Assembly: GCF_003568865.1 (NCBI RefSeq)
Contig: NZ_CP031115.1
Coordinates: 1,798,001 to 1,862,000, forward strand
Origin: Rubrobacter indicoceani
Lineage (GTDB): Bacteria; Actinomycetota; Rubrobacteria; Rubrobacterales; Rubrobacteraceae
DNA length: 64,000 nucleotides
Reading direction: 5' to 3'
Position 1 is the stretch's first letter, and every line of letters starts with the position of its first letter. The notes under the pieces were generated by a model, which ran no database searches, was not told the DNA's origin, and saw only the letters and a list, made by a program, of their open reading frames with translations. This document shows, piece by piece, positions 25,733-35,442 of this stretch. The position numbers and the translations under genes were made by a program.

Positions 25733-27820
25733 CTAGAAGGCCTCTCCGGAGGCGCGCCGTCGGAAGCGCTCGCTTCTGAGGCTCGGAGCGATACCGAGAA
25801 AGACCTCGGCGACCTCCGGGTCGAACTGCGTCCCGGCGTTGGCCTCTATCTCCGCGACGGCCTCTTCGTGGGAGAGCCCGCGACGGTACGGGCGGTCCTG
25901 CACCATCGAGTCGTAGGCGTCGGCGACAAAGACTATCCGGGCGTGGAGCGGGACGTTCTTTCCGGCGAGTCCGTCGGGGTAGCCGCGCCCGTCGTGCCGC
26001 TCGTGGTGGTGGCGGACTATCGGGACTATCCCGGAGAGGTGCGGGATCTGGGCCACCACCCCCGCCCCCATGACGGTGTGCCGCTTTATTAGCTCGAACT
26101 CTTCGGCGGTCAGCTTGCCGGGCTTTTTAAGGACACCGTCCGGGACGCCGATCTTCCCGATATCGTGGAGCATCGCCCCGAGCGAAAGCACGTCTATCTC
26201 CTTCCGGTCGAGGCCCATCCCGGCGCCTATTCTCCTGGCGAGCCCCCGAACGGATTTCATGTGTTCGGCAAGCCCCCGGTCCCGGATGCTCGCGGCTTCG
26301 AGAAGCGCGGCGACAACGGTGTCCGAAGCCTCCGGCACGTCCGGCAAGAAACGTGAGGACTCGACCTCGACCCCTCGCGCTATCCGCCTCGCCCGTCCGA
26401 CCGCAGAGGCCGCGTCATGCTCTGAGGGATCGGCTATAACGTAGCCGACGGAGACCTGAAGCCGACAGGACGACGACCGACCAGCCTCGGCGACGGTCTG
26501 CTCAGCCCAGCGACAGAAACGCTCGGCCCGCCTTTCGCCGCCGCTTTTTAGAACAACGAAGAGCTCCTCGAATTTGTAGCGGAAGGTGCGCTGCGACTCG
26601 TCTATCCGCTCCCCGATGACGCGCAGGAGCCGCTCGGCTTCGGGGTCTACCCTGTGCTGGTCCCATAACCCCTCGAAGCGCAGGCAGACAAGCGTCAGGA
26701 CGCCCTCCTCGCGGGTTCGCATCTCGTCGAGCACCCGGTAGAACGAGTCGCGGTTGGGCAGCCCCGTCGCGAAGTCCCGCCCCCCCGGGGACTCCCACGC
26801 ACTCGTCAGGGCCGAGGAGGCCTGATCGGCGATGAACATCAGCACCCGCTCGTCTTTCTCGTCGAACTCCCGCCCCCCGACGAGCAGCGTACCGTTGTGC
26901 TCGCTGCCGGGTATCCTGAGCGGCACCGCCAGAAAACCGCGCACGTCCCCGGCCCGCTTCTCCGGCTCGCGGTATGCCCCCTCGCGTCGCGAACCCCTGA
27001 GCACGGTCTCCTGAAGCGCCGGGTTCCACCACGTCGGACACACCTCGATGTCTTCGGAGGCGCTCGTGGCGTGGTTGTTGCCGTCCAGGACAACGACGTG
27101 TGAGAAGCGCGCCGGGACAAGGTCCCGCGCTGCAGCCGCCGTCCACTGCAATATCCGCTCGAGGTCGAGTACTTCAAGAATCGGCCCGAAGTTCAGGGCC
27201 AGCCCGGAGACGCTCTCCGAGTACACCCTCTCGGACTCCAGCTCCAGCCTCGTTCTCCGTCCGGCCTCCTGCAGCGTCTGGTTTCTGAAGGACATCAGGC
27301 CCAGCGCGCCGCAGTAGACCCCGAAGCTCCCGGCCAGCAGAAAGGACTCCGGAGATGAAAAGGAGAAGCCGCCCGCAACGAACAGCGAGACGCTGTACGC
27401 CACAAGCGAAAAACAGGCCGCCACGACCGCAAGAGCCGGCCCCCTCACCCACAGGACAGGCAGCGCGGCAAGAAAGAAAATCCCCCCGAAGACCTGCCCC
27501 CCACCGAGCACCACCATCCCGGCGAGCACGGAGTCAAGGATCACGACGGCGAAATAGTTTGTAAGCAGGGACGGACGCCCGAGTATCACCAGAACCCCGA
27601 GCAGCCCCCCTAGAGCCGCCCCAAGAAGAGCGACCACGGAACCGGACCCCGATTCAAGCAGGAAGAACCCCACCGCCCCGAAGACCGCCACCCGAAATAT
27701 CCCGCTCCCGATCACATCAGACCCGTGCGCGGTGCTGTTGAGCCCGTGCCCCTGCACGGACCTGCGCACCGGCTGTTTCAAGTCCCCCTCCAGGCAGATG
27801 GTGTTCTTTACGCGACACAT
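25733..27820 (-). CDS. Membrane GAF - degenerate GGDEF - HD-GYP protein
   Basis: 695 residues from ATG 27820; a TTG at 27781 with GGAGGG just upstream is an attractive alternative start. Six to seven membrane helices in residues ~35-190, then a GAF-like region (~210-340), a GGDEF-like domain (FATGLPNRDSFYRVLDEM) in which the GG(D/E)EF site reads KFEEL, so diguanylate cyclase activity is unlikely, and a C-terminal HD-GYP domain with intact HD (552-553), HHERHDGRGYP (ending at 615) and VADAYD. HD-GYP domains hydrolyse cyclic di-GMP. Expected role: membrane sensor controlling c-di-GMP breakdown. Converges on moaA with a 31-bp gap. Confidence 0.88.
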   Translation of the reverse strand: MCRVKNTICLEGDLKQPVRRSVQGHGLNSTAHGSDVIGSGIFRVAVFGAVGFFLLESGSGSVVALLGAALGGLLGVLVILGRPSLLTNYFAVVILDSVLAGMVVLGGGQVFGGIFFLAALPVLWVRGPALAVVAACFSLVAYSVSLFVAGGFSFSSPESFLLAGSFGVYCGALGLMSFRNQTLQEAGRRTRLELESERVYSESVSGLALNFGPILEVLDLERILQWTAAAARDLVPARFSHVVVLDGNNHATSASEDIEVCPTWWNPALQETVLRGSRREGAYREPEKRAGDVRGFLAVPLRIPGSEHNGTLLVGGREFDEKDERVLMFIADQASSALTSAWESPGGRDFATGLPNRDSFYRVLDEMRTREEGVLTLVCLRFEGLWDQHRVDPEAERLLRVIGERIDESQRTFRYKFEELFVVLKSGGERRAERFCRWAEQTVAEAGRSSSCRLQVSVGYVIADPSEHDAASAVGRARRIARGVEVESSRFLPDVPEASDTVVAALLEAASIRDRGLAEHMKSVRGLARRIGAGMGLDRKEIDVLSLGAMLHDIGKIGVPDGVLKKPGKLTAEEFELIKRHTVMGAGVVAQIPHLSGIVPIVRHHHERHDGRGYPDGLAGKNVPLHARIVFVADAYDSMVQDRPYRRGLSHEEAVAEIEANAGTQFDPEVAEVFLGIAPSLRSERFRRRASGEAF

Positions 27821-27916: not shown

Positions 27917-29305
27917 TCAAGCATTACCTGCGGCATCGGGGTCGCTGGCTTTGTCCGGGGGGCTTTTCGGGGGGGCGCCCAGGATGTCGAAGGAGAACCG
28001 GTGGTCGTCGGCGGCCCGGTAGCCTTCGGCTTCGGTGTCCAGGATTCTCAGAAAGGCCCGCACGACCACCTCATCGAACTGTTTTCCCGCGCCCCGGTTC
28101 ATCTCTTCGCGGGCCGAGGGCGGGTCGAGTCCGGGCCTTCGGGGCTGATCCAAGACCATAGCGGCGTAAGCCTGAGCCACGGCGAGGATGCGGGCTTCGA
28201 GCGGGATCCAGGCCGCCCGGAGTCGGTCGGGGTAGCCGCGCCCGTCGGGGCGTTCGTGGTGCCAGCGCACCCACTTCGACATCTCGGAGAACTCCGGCAC
28301 CGAGGCGAGGGCTTTCTCCCCGAGTTCCGGATGTTCGTAGATGCGGGCTTTAGCGATGGAGTTGAGGTTGCCGCTCGTCCGGAGGAGTTCGTTCGGCAGG
28401 CCGAACATCCCGATGTTGTGCAGAAGACCGGCCATACGCAGCTTCGCGACATCGGCGGGTTTCAAGTCCAGCTCCCCGGCGATATCCGCGGCGTACACCG
28501 CCGTAGCAGCGGCATGGAGGTGTGTGTATCCATCCTGACGACCGAGGTCTTCTATCACCATCGCCCCGAAGGTCAGGTTCGACAGAGCAAGGGATTCTTC
28601 AAGGGAGGCGATGCGGCTCCTCAACTTTGCATTCTCCCGGACGTTCTCCCGGGTTCGGTAGACAAGTATCTGACTCGACACCGCGCCGATAACAACCACG
28701 ATCGCAGCGACCGGTCCATATACTATCAGGGCGAGAATTCCGAGTACTGAAGCCAGGACATTCAGAATGTCTGTCACCAGAAAAGGCTCTATGAGTCCTT
28801 TCCACGTAGTGTGCAAGCCCTGCTCATATTTTACATAGAGCAAACCGGCGTTTGTCGTGTGATTTACGAGCAATAACGTCAGTCCAGATAAGAATGTCGC
28901 GTAAGAAGCTATGGATACGGGTGTGTCCGAACTATTGATCAGCAGAGGCGACGTCAGCAACGAGAGTACGATTCCCGTTAGAAATATCTCTACTGTGTTT
29001 CTCGCATTTTCATAGGCCAGACGCTTGAGGTTGCGTCTAGCCAATATGAATGTAGAAGGAATCAACCCAATCGCAACCCAGAATGGCCCGATCAACACTA
29101 TCGAAACAATAATAACTATGTCTGAAGCATCAATGCTCCAACGGTCGCTCACGCTGATAGGGAAACGTTCCGTGATCAGCAAGAGCAAACTACAGATCAC
29201 AGCCCCGAAAAATAGCTGAGCCTCCCAGTCTAAGCCGTACCAGTAAACCCAAGAAGCAGCTAGTCCTATTCCAAGGGCCGACAATATAGCGGTATAAGAC
29301 CTCAA
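27917..29305 (-). CDS. Membrane HD-GYP-like protein with mutated metal site
   Basis: 462 residues. Residues ~5-215 hold six to seven membrane helices with conserved-looking loops (RWSIDASDIVIIVSIVLIGP; YENARNTVEIFLTGI), a MASE-like sensor arrangement. The C-terminal domain aligns with HD-GYP and keeps HHERPDGRGYP (GYP 357-359), but the defining HD is HN (296-297, LLHNIGMFGLP) and the later VADAYD aspartate is Gln (VAQAYA). Two metal ligands are therefore lost, and phosphodiesterase activity is unlikely; a c-di-GMP receptor or partner of the adjacent HD-GYP protein is a reasonable inference. Base composition of the membrane half is noticeably less GC-rich than the neighbours. Confidence 0.82.
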   Translation of the reverse strand: MRSYTAILSALGIGLAASWVYWYGLDWEAQLFFGAVICSLLLLITERFPISVSDRWSIDASDIVIIVSIVLIGPFWVAIGLIPSTFILARRNLKRLAYENARNTVEIFLTGIVLSLLTSPLLINSSDTPVSIASYATFLSGLTLLLVNHTTNAGLLYVKYEQGLHTTWKGLIEPFLVTDILNVLASVLGILALIVYGPVAAIVVVIGAVSSQILVYRTRENVRENAKLRSRIASLEESLALSNLTFGAMVIEDLGRQDGYTHLHAAATAVYAADIAGELDLKPADVAKLRMAGLLHNIGMFGLPNELLRTSGNLNSIAKARIYEHPELGEKALASVPEFSEMSKWVRWHHERPDGRGYPDRLRAAWIPLEARILAVAQAYAAMVLDQPRRPGLDPPSAREEMNRGAGKQFDEVVVRAFLRILDTEAEGYRAADDHRFSFDILGAPPKSPPDKASDPDAAGNA

Positions 29306-29401: not shown

Positions 29402-29428
29402 CTACCAAGCCTTGCTGCGATCGTTCAT
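29402..29428 (-). CDS. Octapeptide ORF 1 (MNDRSKAW)
   Basis: An 8-codon ORF, ATG 29428 to TAG 29402, with a strong purine-rich Shine-Dalgarno (AGAGGTGGAG) two to seven bases upstream. The peptide MNDRSKAW is nearly identical to that of the second ORF 93 bp upstream. Between the two copies the codons for Arg, Lys and Ala and the stop codon differ but the residues do not, as expected for selection on the peptide. It ends about 97 bp before the HD-GYP-like gene on the same strand, so it may be a leader ORF. A further 18-codon ORF (29341-29397) follows without a clear ribosome site. Confidence 0.6.
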   Translation of the reverse strand: MNDRSKAW

Positions 29429-29494
29429 ATCTCCACCTCTTTTCCATTGGTCAAGTCAATGTAAGTGTTGCATCAGGACGAGCTTTTAGGCTGG

Positions 29495-29521
29495 TTACCA
29501 GGCTTTGCTACGATCTGTCAT
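29495..29521 (-). CDS. Octapeptide ORF 2 (MTDRSKAW)
   Basis: An 8-codon ORF, ATG 29521 to TAA 29495, preceded by the Shine-Dalgarno GGGGGTGA four bases upstream. It shares DRSKAW plus start with ORF 1 using different synonymous codons (CGT/CGC, AAA/AAG, GCC/GCT, TAA/TAG). Size excludes an enzyme; candidates are a regulatory leader peptide for the downstream HD-GYP-like gene or a short signalling peptide. RSK matches the basic-x-basic pattern seen in some antibiotic-induced stalling leaders, which is only suggestive. Confidence 0.6.
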   Translation of the reverse strand: MTDRSKAW

Positions 29522-29562
29522 TTCGTCACCCCCTTTTACGCTCGTGCGCCTTTTCGCGCTTT

Positions 29563-29591
29563 ATGCTACGTGCTTGTATACCCGAAGTGAA
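29563..29591 (-). promoter_or_regulatory. Candidate promoter upstream of the octapeptide ORFs
   Basis: On the minus strand, TTCACT (29586-29591) and TAGCAT (29563-29568) are 17 bp apart, each matching four of six consensus bases. It would start transcription about 35 bp upstream of octapeptide ORF 2. The 330-bp region between the MFS gene and the HD-GYP-like gene otherwise contains only the two small ORFs. Confidence 0.35.
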
Positions 29592-29637: not shown

Positions 29638-30843
29638 TCACCCGGTGGGTTTTGCGCCGGAGCGGATCACGGCCAGCACGAGGATGCCGAAGGCGGCCAT
29701 TGCTGCTGCGGCGATCAGGTACGAGGGTTGCGGGCCTGCTGCGGCTACGATGAAGCCTCCGGCCGCGAGGGCTACAACCTCTCCGGTGCTGCGAAACAGA
29801 AAGAGCACGGAGTAGACGCGCCCGAGAAAGGCTCCGGGGACGGTTCTCTGGAGCAGCGCGTCGGTTGCGACGTTGTCTACGCCGTTGCAGGAACCGGCTA
29901 GGCACATCGCCGCGAGCACAAGGGTGAAGAGCGGCGAGAAGCCGACAAACGCAAGGGCCGCGCAGGCTGCGACGATGCTTGCGAAGTAGGCAAAGACAAG
30001 GTTTGCCCGGTCTCCGAGCGCGGCCATCAGGGCGGAACCGGAGATCATCCCGACCCCGTAGGTCGCGACGAGCAGCCCGTATCCGGCGTTCCCCGCGTCG
30101 AAGGTCTCCCGCGCAAGAAAGGCCTCCGCCGGGACGGTGGAGTTCTCGGCGAGGACAAGGAGCAGCGCCCCGAGAACCAGCCCGAGCGGCAGCCGCGCCC
30201 CCGTCAGATACAGCAGCCCGGCTCTGAGCTCCGTCAGGAAGCCTTCCTCCTCGTCCGGGTTGCGGTCCGCCGGCATGGGCACAAAAGCCAGAAAAGCGGC
30301 CGAGACGATAAAGGTCAGGGCGTCCACGACAAAGGCGACATCAACCCCGACCAGGGCGATGAGGCCGCCGCCGAGGGCCGGTCCGAGCGCGATGGAGAAG
30401 CTGAAGGAGCCGCTGATCAGGGCGTTGGCGCGGGTTATGTCACCGCCGCCGATAACGCCGGGGAACGCCGAGCGGATGGTCGGGTTGAAGAGCGTCTGGC
30501 AGACGCCGAGGGCGAAGACAAGCGGGTAGAGCAGCGTAACATCGTCCACAAAGACAAGGGAGGTTATGATCCCGGCCCGCGCAAGGTCCACCGAGACGAG
30601 CAGCCGTCTGCGGTCGCGAAGGCGGTCCGCCAGTACCCCGACGAGCGGGCTGGCGAGCGTCGGGAGAAGCCGGGCGACGAGTATCCCACCGACGCTCGCC
30701 GCGCTCCCGGTCAGGTCGGCGACAAAGACCACGAGCGCGACGAGCGTTACGGCGTCACCGATGAATGAGATGCTCTGTCCGGCCCACAGACGCATAAACC
30801 TGCGGTTCTGTACAAGCGGGGCCCGTCCTCCGGCTTCCGGCAA
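29638..30843 (-). CDS. MFS transporter (drug/siderophore exporter type)
   Basis: 401 residues from TTG 30843 with GGGGGAG five bases upstream. Twelve membrane helices. The early motif A is GVLADRLRDRRRLL, typical of major facilitator antiporters, and the N-terminal NRRFMRLWAGQSISFIGDAV is characteristic of the MFS_3/EntS/MefA-like branch, which exports macrolides, siderophores or other small molecules by proton antiport. Substrate not predictable. It is transcribed in the same direction as the octapeptide ORFs downstream. Confidence 0.9.
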   Translation of the reverse strand: MPEAGGRAPLVQNRRFMRLWAGQSISFIGDAVTLVALVVFVADLTGSAASVGGILVARLLPTLASPLVGVLADRLRDRRRLLVSVDLARAGIITSLVFVDDVTLLYPLVFALGVCQTLFNPTIRSAFPGVIGGGDITRANALISGSFSFSIALGPALGGGLIALVGVDVAFVVDALTFIVSAAFLAFVPMPADRNPDEEEGFLTELRAGLLYLTGARLPLGLVLGALLLVLAENSTVPAEAFLARETFDAGNAGYGLLVATYGVGMISGSALMAALGDRANLVFAYFASIVAACAALAFVGFSPLFTLVLAAMCLAGSCNGVDNVATDALLQRTVPGAFLGRVYSVLFLFRSTGEVVALAAGGFIVAAAGPQPSYLIAAAAMAAFGILVLAVIRSGAKPTG

Positions 30844-30927: not shown

Positions 30928-31254
30928 TCAGTCGGGTTCGATGGTGGAGATCAAACCGCCGCTCGTGAGCCCTTCCTGGTAGAGTTCCGCGAGTTCTAGG
31001 TGGCACTTTATAACGACGGCCTTGCCGTTTTTGTGCGCTTCTATCATGATGTTGGTCGCCTGCTTGAAGCTCATGTTCGGAACGACCTTCCTGAGCACGT
31101 CTATAACGTGTTCCATCGGGGTGAAGTCGTCGTTGTGCAGGATAACCTTGTAGGGTGGTTCCTGGCTTGTGCGGTTCTCCGTCGTCTCTTTCGGCTTTGT
31201 GTCCGGGCCGGAGGCCATAGCTGAAATACCGGGTGTGATGTCAGTAGTTCTCAT
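30928..31254 (-). CDS. clpS: ATP-dependent Clp protease adaptor ClpS
   Basis: 108 residues from ATG 31254, which overlaps the acuC stop (ATGA). The core from residue ~33 has the ClpS signature PYKVILHNDDFTPMEHVIDVL and later A-x-x-IMxEAHKNGKAVV, which form the N-degron pocket and ClpA/ClpC interface. ClpS delivers N-end-rule substrates to the Clp protease. An internal ATG (MASGPDTKP) is a possible alternative start; the first ~30 residues are not conserved in the family. Confidence 0.95.
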   Translation of the reverse strand: MRTTDITPGISAMASGPDTKPKETTENRTSQEPPYKVILHNDDFTPMEHVIDVLRKVVPNMSFKQATNIMIEAHKNGKAVVIKCHLELAELYQEGLTSGGLISTIEPD

Positions 31255-32456
31255 AGGATCAATGGTACGACTTTCTCGAGCACTTCTGTAGCGGTTTTGC
31301 GGTTTTGGGCGGCGATTTCCCTGGCTCTAGCCGCGGGCGGGAAGTCTTTTGCGAGGTCCAGCATCATCTCCGGGAGCGTTACGGGGCTCTGCATGCCGCG
31401 TTCGAGCAACCAGCCCTGCGGGAGGTGTTCCGGTACGGTCTGATGCGACATGACCGCCCAGAGCGTGGTCCACGCCCGGGGCACGACGCGCCAGATGTCG
31501 TAGCCGCCGCCGCCCGTCGCAACCCAGCGTCCTTTGCAGAGCTCGTGGGCGAGGTCGTGGATGCGCCGGGGTATGTGCCTGTAGAGGCGCATCGTCGCCG
31601 AGAGGTGCGTGAGCGGGTCGAGTACGTGCCCGTCGCAGCCGTTCTGCGAGATTATGATGTCCGGCCCGAACGCCCGCAGTGCTTCGGGTACGACCGCCTC
31701 GAAGGTCTCTATCCAGGTGTCGTCGCTGGTGAAGGGCTCCAGTGGCACGTTCACGGAGTAACCGAGGCCGTCACCCCGGCCCTTCTCGCCCACCTCGCCC
31801 GTTCCGGGAAAAAGAAACCGCCCGGTCTCGTGCATGGAGATAGTGAGCACCTGCGGGTCGTCGTAGAACATCCACTGTACGCCGTCGCCGTGATGAGCGT
31901 CGGTGTCTACGTAGGCTATCTTGATGCCGGGGTGCTCTTCCTTGAGGCGGGCGATGGCTACGCCGGCGTCGTTGTAGACGCAGAACCCCGCCGCCCGGGA
32001 GCGCATCGCATGGTGCAGACCGCCGGAGATGCAGAGGGCGTGATTCACCTCCCCGCTCATAACCATCCGCGAGGCCTTGAGAACGGCCCCGACGACGTGC
32101 GAGGAGGCCCGGTGCATGCCGGGGAAGATGGGGTTGTCTGCGGTTCCGATGCCGTAGGAGAGAAGGTCGTCGCGGTTCGGGCCGTTGCTGTTGCACTGCT
32201 GGACACGCCGAACGTAGGTGAGGCTGTGGACGGTGGTGAGGTCGTCGTCGGTGGCGGGTTCGGCCCCGACCATCGCGTAGGAGTCGGTCAGGCCGAGGGC
32301 TTCGCAGAGTTCGAAGGTGAGCCGGATGCGGAGCGGGTTGAAGGGGTGATCCCCGCCGAACCCGTAGGATTCAAGCGTGCGGTCGTGTACGAGAACGGCC
32401 TCTTCGCCGGGGTCTCCCCGGCGGGAGCGGTCTCTTTCTTCTCCGATGATCTTCAT
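31251..32456 (-). CDS. acuC: Acetoin utilisation/histone-deacetylase-like protein AcuC
   Basis: 401 residues from ATG 32456. Class I histone-deacetylase fold, zinc-dependent amidohydrolase. Visible catalytic elements: the His-His pair at 148-149 (SGGLHHAM), DTDAHHGDGVQWMFYDD at 184-200 with zinc ligands D186 and H188, and the third zinc ligand in QNGCDGH. In Bacillus AcuC deacetylates acetyl-CoA synthetase; that role is plausible but no acs gene is in view. Translationally coupled to clpS. Confidence 0.92.
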   Translation of the reverse strand: MKIIGEERDRSRRGDPGEEAVLVHDRTLESYGFGGDHPFNPLRIRLTFELCEALGLTDSYAMVGAEPATDDDLTTVHSLTYVRRVQQCNSNGPNRDDLLSYGIGTADNPIFPGMHRASSHVVGAVLKASRMVMSGEVNHALCISGGLHHAMRSRAAGFCVYNDAGVAIARLKEEHPGIKIAYVDTDAHHGDGVQWMFYDDPQVLTISMHETGRFLFPGTGEVGEKGRGDGLGYSVNVPLEPFTSDDTWIETFEAVVPEALRAFGPDIIISQNGCDGHVLDPLTHLSATMRLYRHIPRRIHDLAHELCKGRWVATGGGGYDIWRVVPRAWTTLWAVMSHQTVPEHLPQGWLLERGMQSPVTLPEMMLDLAKDFPPAARAREIAAQNRKTATEVLEKVVPLIL

Positions 32457-35179: not shown

Positions 35180-35254
35180 GGGCCAGTAGCTCAGTGGTAG
35201 AGCAGGGGACTTTTAATCCTCGTGTCGAAGGTTCGATCCCTTCCTGGCTCACCA
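35180..35254 (+). tRNA. tRNA-Lys (UUU)
   Basis: A full cloverleaf can be drawn: acceptor GGGCCAG/CTGGCTC with one G-U pair, D-arm GCTC...GAGC, anticodon stem GGGGA/TCCTC with loop CTTTTAA (anticodon TTT), T-arm with GGTTCGATCC, discriminator A at 35251 and an encoded CCA (35252-35254). Confidence 0.97.
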
Positions 35255-35266
35255 GCAGGTCCAGAG

Positions 35267-35339
35267 GCCCCCATCGTCTAGAGGCCCAGGACACCGCCCT
35301 TTCAAGGCGGCGGCACGGGTTCGAATCCCGTTGGGGGCA
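35267..35339 (+). tRNA. tRNA-Glu (UUC)
   Basis: Acceptor GCCCCCA/TGGGGGC, anticodon stem CCGCC/GGCGG with loop CTTTCAA (anticodon TTC), T-arm GGGTTCGAATCCC, discriminator A. CCA is not encoded. Separated from tRNA-Lys by 12 bp, so probably one transcript. Confidence 0.97.
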
Positions 35340-35369
35340 CTTCAGGGGTTCCGCCCGGAACCCTTTTCG

Positions 35370-35442
35370 GGGCGATTAGCTCAGCGGTAGAGCACCTTCC
35401 CTTACAAGGAGGGGGTCGCTGGTTCGAACCCAGCATCGCCCA
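35370..35442 (+). tRNA. tRNA-Val (UAC), likely island insertion site
   Basis: Acceptor GGGCGAT/ATCGCCC, D-arm GCTC...GAGC, anticodon stem CTTCC/GGAGG with loop CTTACAA (anticodon TAC), T-arm TGGTTCGAACCCA, discriminator A; no encoded CCA. A toxin-antitoxin pair and a tyrosine integrase begin just downstream, the usual layout when an element integrates into a tRNA 3' end and restores it. Confidence 0.97.

Follow-up and report, generated by a model that had tools for sequence, protein, structure and literature searches.

What are two open reading frames of eight codons, one encoding MTDRSKAW and the other MNDRSKAW, doing in front of a gene for a membrane protein with an HD-GYP-like domain? They lie in the window, the whole 64,000-nt stretch of Rubrobacter indicoceani DNA analysed here. 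The first-pass annotation had described two such frames 93 bp apart, each behind a strong Shine-Dalgarno (SD) sequence, in the leader of a membrane HD-GYP-like gene. Both frames are present, with starts at that spacing, but on the minus strand; GGGGGTGA precedes MTDRSKAW, the SD-like AGAGGTGGAG precedes MNDRSKAW, and the gene, here called TM-HD, lies downstream on the same strand. In window coordinates, the locus is laid out as follows.

29638–30843, minus strand: MFS gene, upstream (Pfam MFS_1/MFS_3)
29563–29591, minus strand: putative array promoter P1, TTCACT (29591–29586), 17 nt, TAGCAT (29568–29563); inferred, the consensus first drawn by eye
29526–29533, minus strand: Shine-Dalgarno-like sequence of micro-ORF 1 (sequence and 44-unit alignment)
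29495–29521, minus strand: micro-ORF 1, MTDRSKAW, ATG ACA GAT CGT AGC AAA GCC TGG TAA
29431–29440, minus strand: Shine-Dalgarno-like sequence of micro-ORF 2 (sequence and 44-unit alignment)
29402–29428, minus strand: micro-ORF 2, MNDRSKAW, ATG AAC GAT CGC AGC AAG GCT TGG TAG
27917–29305, minus strand: TM-HD gene, 462 aa from TTG, start codon uncertain (Pfam HD_5, 1.5e-31)
25733–27820, minus strand: GAF-GGDEF-HD-GYP gene, HD and GYP motifs intact (Pfam)

Over codons 3–9 the two frames differ four times, each time by a third-position transition, and a residue changes at codon 2 alone; the silent divergence around identical residues 3–8 that had been noted is borne out by this comparison. Among 5000 dinucleotide-preserving shuffles of the leader, none yields an SD-led ORF pair with at least three common C-terminal residues. 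The GAF-GGDEF-HD-GYP gene is probably a partner of the TM-HD gene, or co-regulated with it, at clade-A loci; many clade-A TM-HD genes have a second HD-GYP gene about 2 kb behind them. The MFS gene is a candidate exporter for the window locus only. As a universal exporter it was rejected: no MFS gene stands beside the second array of the same genome (L107), and the MFS neighbour is not conserved at clade-B loci. Elsewhere in the window, reading translations by eye, a ClpS-like adaptor gene (30928–31254, minus strand) is followed by an AcuC/histone-deacetylase-like gene (31251–32456, minus strand), and three tRNA genes are clustered at 35180–35442 on the plus strand.

Micro-ORF arrays in the Rubrobacteraceae

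Conservation of the pair was to be judged from short ORFs ending in DRSKAW in related genomes. None occurs in 38 other Rubrobacteraceae genomes, and the window genome itself has none besides the window locus and one chance match (DRCKAW, antisense inside a UMP-kinase-like ORF). Such a search fails because the sequence shifts from locus to locus while the architecture of the array persists. Since the exact peptide is absent from the family, relatives were sought through the downstream protein and their leaders were read unfiltered by sequence. It is the architecture, not the peptide, that is conserved among them: one to five SD-led micro-ORFs of 6–11 codons before a TM-HD gene. The word "pair" is true of the window, with its two copies, and too narrow for the family.

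At least one unit stands directly 5' of 36 of the 43 assessable TM-HD genes (45 TM-HD membrane domains were found, two of them at contig ends), in a set of genomes that includes MAGs and is phylogenetically non-independent; two or more units are present at 31 loci and a single unit at five. The seven array-less genes are G013:C1:1051534, G014:C1:304151, G015:C11, G021:C102, G025:C17, G026:C213 and G027:C13. The leaders of relatives encode MTDRWRTW/MLDRWRTW; MTEGGVRAW/MIEGARSW/MTEGARSW; MNFAQRHGW and two copies of MTFGQRHGW; MFWARKSW/MFWARSSW; MARRSW four times; and MSKRVW, MAKRTW, MARKSW and MARKIW twice each. Arrays of paralogues comprise three MSEGKIHAW and one MAEGKIHAW; M[TR]EGKSHIW, MTEGVRGW and MGRKAW three times each; MFCRKGW, MRFGSRRAW and MPKSNAW twice each; four MPRIASW and one MSAPRIASW; and others. 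Those found later are three MTDASRAW with MTEASRAW, MTEANARAW with two MTEGTARAW, and M[QS]KI[ER]LGHKYW pairs. Paralogous TM-HD genes within one genome have unrelated peptides: M[TN]DRSKAW and, at its second TM-HD locus, three copies of MSEGKARFW in the window genome (G000), MIDRFRTW and MPRIASW in G001, and MARRSW and MGRKAW in G038. Read from these sequences, locus specificity of the peptide is supported. The basic-x-basic motif to which the first-pass annotation had pointed is not general; MPRIASW, MWAKANSW and MPKSNAW are counterexamples.

Exclusive linkage is supported by a covariance model of the unit built on sequence alone (R1), to which the window micro-ORFs 1 and 2 score at E 1.2e-4 and 3.9e-4. 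Across 39 Rubrobacteraceae genomes, every array cluster that it detects lies before a TM-HD gene. Across 357 other Actinomycetota it returns isolated partial matches and no arrays, and the matches that were inspected fall where ordinary genes have their SD and start; the same 357 also lack the TM-HD membrane domain. Among the genomes searched, both arrays and TM-HD are restricted to the Rubrobacteraceae. Within the family the membrane domain is present in 24 of 39 genomes and units in 23 of those 24, the exception (G009) being represented by truncated contigs only; family genomes that lack the membrane domain (e.g., genus g12) have no array. A search of genome contigs with the TM-HD protein returned Rubrobacter loci only, plus a Stutzerimonas HD-domain match, and the viral contigs searched gave no match.

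Three irregular loci may be recorded here. At G001:C4:809076-810325 (L060/L108) the TM-HD gene is split over two frames, either as a pseudogene or by sequencing error, and its five MPRIASW units are intact. The 5' copy at L055 (G025:C1) is a decaying unit, MPKLKNNAWQAVLSR, without a stop directly after Trp. At L143 (G021:C102) an SD-led MLFRHRAR, ending in Arg instead of Trp, stands before an otherwise array-less TM-HD gene.

Coding evolution of the units

Forty-four aligned units run from an SD core (GGNGGTG) over RTG and a middle that varies to TGGTAR; outside the coding sequence, conservation is highest at the SD. Start-to-start spacing is 68–117 nt in 40 of 41 cases, and mostly 70–95 nt. 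Over the first 32 arrays, Trp mostly follows a small residue (A, S, C, T or G), and the position preceding that one is K or R in 22.5 of 32 arrays and otherwise N, H, A or S. Trp precedes the stop in every unit, an invariance that is partly one of ascertainment because later searches took Trp-ending ORFs only. In twelve clade-A leaders read unfiltered, the repeated peptides are all of the Trp-ending micro-ORF kind.

The further statistics rest on 34 arrays with 80 units, assembled before the M[QS]KI[ER]LGHKYW pairs were joined. Of the 80 units, 79 end in TAA or TAG and one in TGA, whereas TGA ends 48 of 105 long ORFs (p = 2e-13). TAA and TAG can both be read by RF1. Avoidance of UGA, a leaky stop, would keep the C-terminal Trp exact.

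Comparison of consecutive units, with Trp and codon 2 excluded, finds 151 identical, 49 synonymously changed and 17 non-synonymously changed codons. Between consecutive units there are 55.2 synonymous differences over 148.3 sites and 30.8 non-synonymous differences over 502.7, for a dN/dS of 0.125 (binomial p = 4e-16). Codon 2 is looser, with a pN of 0.20 compared with 0.06 for the remaining codons, and Ser codons swap between TCN and AGY inside three arrays (G038a, G020a and G021b). Over the 42 nt that precede each SD, likeness is 57.4% within arrays and 55.7% between them. Recent tandem duplication or gene conversion is ruled out as the source of the likeness: spacers that are unrelated mean that the copies are neither fresh duplicates nor homogenised by conversion, and the synonymous sites have diverged. 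Between arrays, dN is 0.86 and dS 1.5. The peptides are thus held alike inside an array and are free to differ between arrays. That selection acts on the peptide, not the DNA, as had been proposed from the window pair, is strongly supported by the within-array dN/dS and by spacers that are equally unlike within and between arrays; by the same codon comparisons, it is supported that the micro-ORFs are translated and that this translation is under selection.

The TM-HD protein and its divergence with the peptide

AlphaFold2, given 26 relatives, models the TM-HD protein with a mean pLDDT of 86 and predicts a helical membrane domain (1–196), a long helix (198–258) and then the HD domain. In Foldseek the membrane part matches TmRibU (probability 1.00, TMt 0.63, but at a weak E of 0.06), with ThiT and metal S-components as the next matches. 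The membrane domain is accordingly predicted to resemble ECF S-components. The S-component fold is also that of 5TMR-type sensor kinases (PMC11109136). LytS, YpdA and BtsS (5TMR-LYT) likewise join an S-component-like membrane domain to a signalling domain; TM-HD differs from them in having no match to Pfam PF07694 (5TMR-LYT) and in its output, a degenerate HD-GYP domain. Fusion of an S-component-like domain to a degenerate HD-GYP domain is not named in the passages of PMC11109136 consulted.

The C-terminal part matches the HD-GYP domains of DvhD and PA4781. It shares the catalytic-domain fold of the phosphodiesterases PA4781, PmGH and DvhD, together with HH (kept in TM-HD) and GYP (kept except for one GFP), and departs from them at the predicted active site. 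Of the 29 array-bearing proteins examined, 28 have a changed HD dyad, HN in clade A (the window protein included) and QD, MD, RD or QN in clade B; the exception, G021b, keeps it. Among six array-less proteins, three have it intact. The Lys of GK is nearly always lost, and the Asp of VAD mostly. From these residues, the domain is likely to be a catalytically dead or altered c-di-GMP-binding domain, and peptide dependence and catalytic loss may go together.

Peptide distances follow the membrane domain. The partial Spearman Mantel correlation of peptide with membrane domain, given HD, is 0.20 (p = 0.0025) overall, 0.28 (p = 0.017) in clade A and 0.58 (p = 0.0005) in clade B, the permutations understating relatedness; that of peptide with HD, given the membrane domain, is -0.01 to -0.06. 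Linkage or resolution may contribute to this signal, since of the two domains the membrane domain lies closer to the array and is the faster-evolving one. Divergence of the peptide together with the TM-HD membrane domain is supported by these sequence distances.

Possible functions of the arrays

We lean, if only slightly, towards reading the multi-copy micro-peptide as a cognate ligand of the adjacent TM-HD receptor. Each unit would be translated on its own to a short peptide with a free C-terminal Trp, and tandem copies would raise the peptide dose. The peptide would bind the S-component-like membrane domain through its C-terminal half, which is proposed as the binding part because most copies share their C-terminal residues and residue 2 is loose. 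The signal of binding would pass through the long helix to the usually degenerate HD-GYP domain, which would probably no longer cleave c-di-GMP and might bind it or act on a partner, possibly the intact HD-GYP protein next door. With its own peptide for each TM-HD paralogue, the peptide-receptor pairs would stay insulated. Binding, the side of the membrane, the route of export and the output are the parts of this scheme that we infer. The units show no signal sequence or precursor form, no protease or dedicated exporter accompanies the arrays among the surrounding ORFs that were examined, and leaderless 6–11-mers are not known to have an export route.

Of the two roles first suggested for the window pair, that of a signalling peptide fits better. 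The other generalises to a leader acting in cis, with translation of the micro-ORFs, or stalling on them, controlling transcription or translation of TM-HD on the same mRNA; we regard it as a real but rather unlikely account, and judge in the same way its stalling version, with a basic residue, a small residue, Trp in the P site and a stop in the A site. The position of the arrays, always just 5' of the gene, and the Trp before every stop speak for it, as does basic-x-basic at some loci. TnaC, SpeFL, the ErmCL +x+ class and trp leaders are likewise tiny SD-led frames that stand ahead of a gene and have a Trp/stop end. The arrays differ from these arrest and attenuation leaders in being identical repeats that are locus-specific and have no shared arrest motif: Trp is invariant and position -3 usually basic, and the remaining residues vary between loci but not within arrays. 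Arrest on a conserved ribosome would not predict a peptide that is specific to the locus and identical within arrays. Arrests at stop codons such as those of TnaC and PepNL need UGA and RF2, whereas the arrays avoid UGA. Ligand and receptor are favoured over arrest because the same peptide recurs in an array, another is found at each paralogue, the arrays are linked solely to TM-HD, and peptide and membrane domain codiverge. Classical Trp attenuation was rejected: each ORF has one Trp, and the gene that follows, TM-HD, is no Trp gene.

Transcription bears on this account from both sides. A TAG[C/T]A[T/A] hexamer lies 37–47 nt 5' of the first unit start at 11 of 13 clade-A loci, including the window. 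The last unit is about 100–220 nt from the TM-HD gene. In this interval 19 of 34 loci carry, beyond shuffle expectation (p < 0.05), a promoter-like element (a TGT[A/G]C-like -35, 17 nt, a NANAAT-like -10); the result is descriptive only, because the consensus was drawn from the same sequences. Transcripts from a promoter 3' of the array would exclude the units and so remove them from control in cis. No such element is present at the window locus, G001a or G004a; since the window shows P1 only, its units may lie in the TM-HD mRNA, as a cis-acting leader would have it. Folding of the window leader does not surpass that of its shuffles (z 0.51), and no attenuator and no convincing terminator was found in it. 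In clade-A leaders (e.g., L022 and L024) an inverted repeat with compensatory changes, for example GTACGGAGCCTG...CAGGCTCCGTAC, surrounds the TM-HD promoter-like element. Compared over 11 clade-A loci, this moderately covarying helix, which would suit control in cis, has double changes in 6 of 9 pairs, yet is broken in several sequences; it may represent an operator, or a hairpin formed in read-through RNA.

A peptide that stays inside the cell and acts on the cytoplasmic face of TM-HD, or on some other target, would not be a cell-to-cell signal at all. The peptides have no secretion signal, and no export machinery is common to all arrays; divergence of the peptide, however, tracks the membrane domain instead of the HD domain in the cytoplasm, and a product that is exported and diluted would be well served by gene copies in tandem. 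We judge an intracellular effector improbable. The units are very unlikely to be minimal RiPP genes, encoding precursors of a modified peptide or of a cofactor made by enzymes from elsewhere in the genome. In the biarylitides (PMC13417212) an 18-bp gene encodes a 5-aa peptide and is paired with a P450; these, too, are stand-alone genes of few codons, and in the arrays the invariant Trp could be the modified residue; the arrays differ in having multiple copies, locus-specific sequences and a receptor-like neighbour, and no P450 or other modifying enzyme is shared beside them. That the peptides are incidental to a structured RNA or DNA element is scarcely credible. The strict SD and Trp-stop spelling of the units speaks for such an element, as do the inverted repeats beside the promoter-like site of TM-HD, but changes within arrays are synonymous far beyond expectation, the Ser TCN/AGY swaps among them. 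Rfam scans gave tRNAs only at gathering level and noise only at the relaxed level, and the leader has no stable fold; a likeness to the GEMM c-di-GMP riboswitch found no support in the same scans.

The ligand-receptor reading has its nearest parallels among the Gram-positive pheromones. In agrD-agrC, comX-comP, Phr/Rap and shp/rgg, likewise, a short peptide gene lies beside a receptor gene, peptide and receptor codiverge, and paralogous pairs coexist in one genome. Those pheromones are cut or modified from longer precursors that have export signals, by way of named exporters or proteases, whereas the units of the Rubrobacteraceae would be 6–11 codons translated directly, from up to five separate ORFs with no linked exporter, and the receptor would be S-component-like plus HD-GYP-like. 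None of the nearest systems (pheromone pairs, biarylitides, leader peptides) has tandem stand-alone micro-ORFs for one locus-specific peptide, and no comparable system was found in the open-access literature searched, where a subscription paper could be missed. Standard annotation misses such arrays because it applies a minimum ORF length. That leaderless tandem micro-peptides form a new signalling class, with S-component-like receptors, degenerate HD-GYP outputs and insulated channels into c-di-GMP signalling, we put a little short of an even chance. If the peptides are ligands, the class would be new within the broad kind of peptide-receptor pairs.

Even as elements acting in cis, the arrays would show coding evolution in an unexplained form: tandem micro-ORFs that are identical and change in concert. 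For signalling in the Rubrobacteraceae, the review PMC4748050 lists only LuxR-like genes. If the peptides are ligands, an S-component-like membrane domain would be what ties micropeptides to c-di-GMP signalling. This deep-branching family of Actinomycetota would then possess the smallest possible signalling genes, with no precursor processing, and would offer about 30 natural peptide-receptor pairs that bring their own specificity controls.
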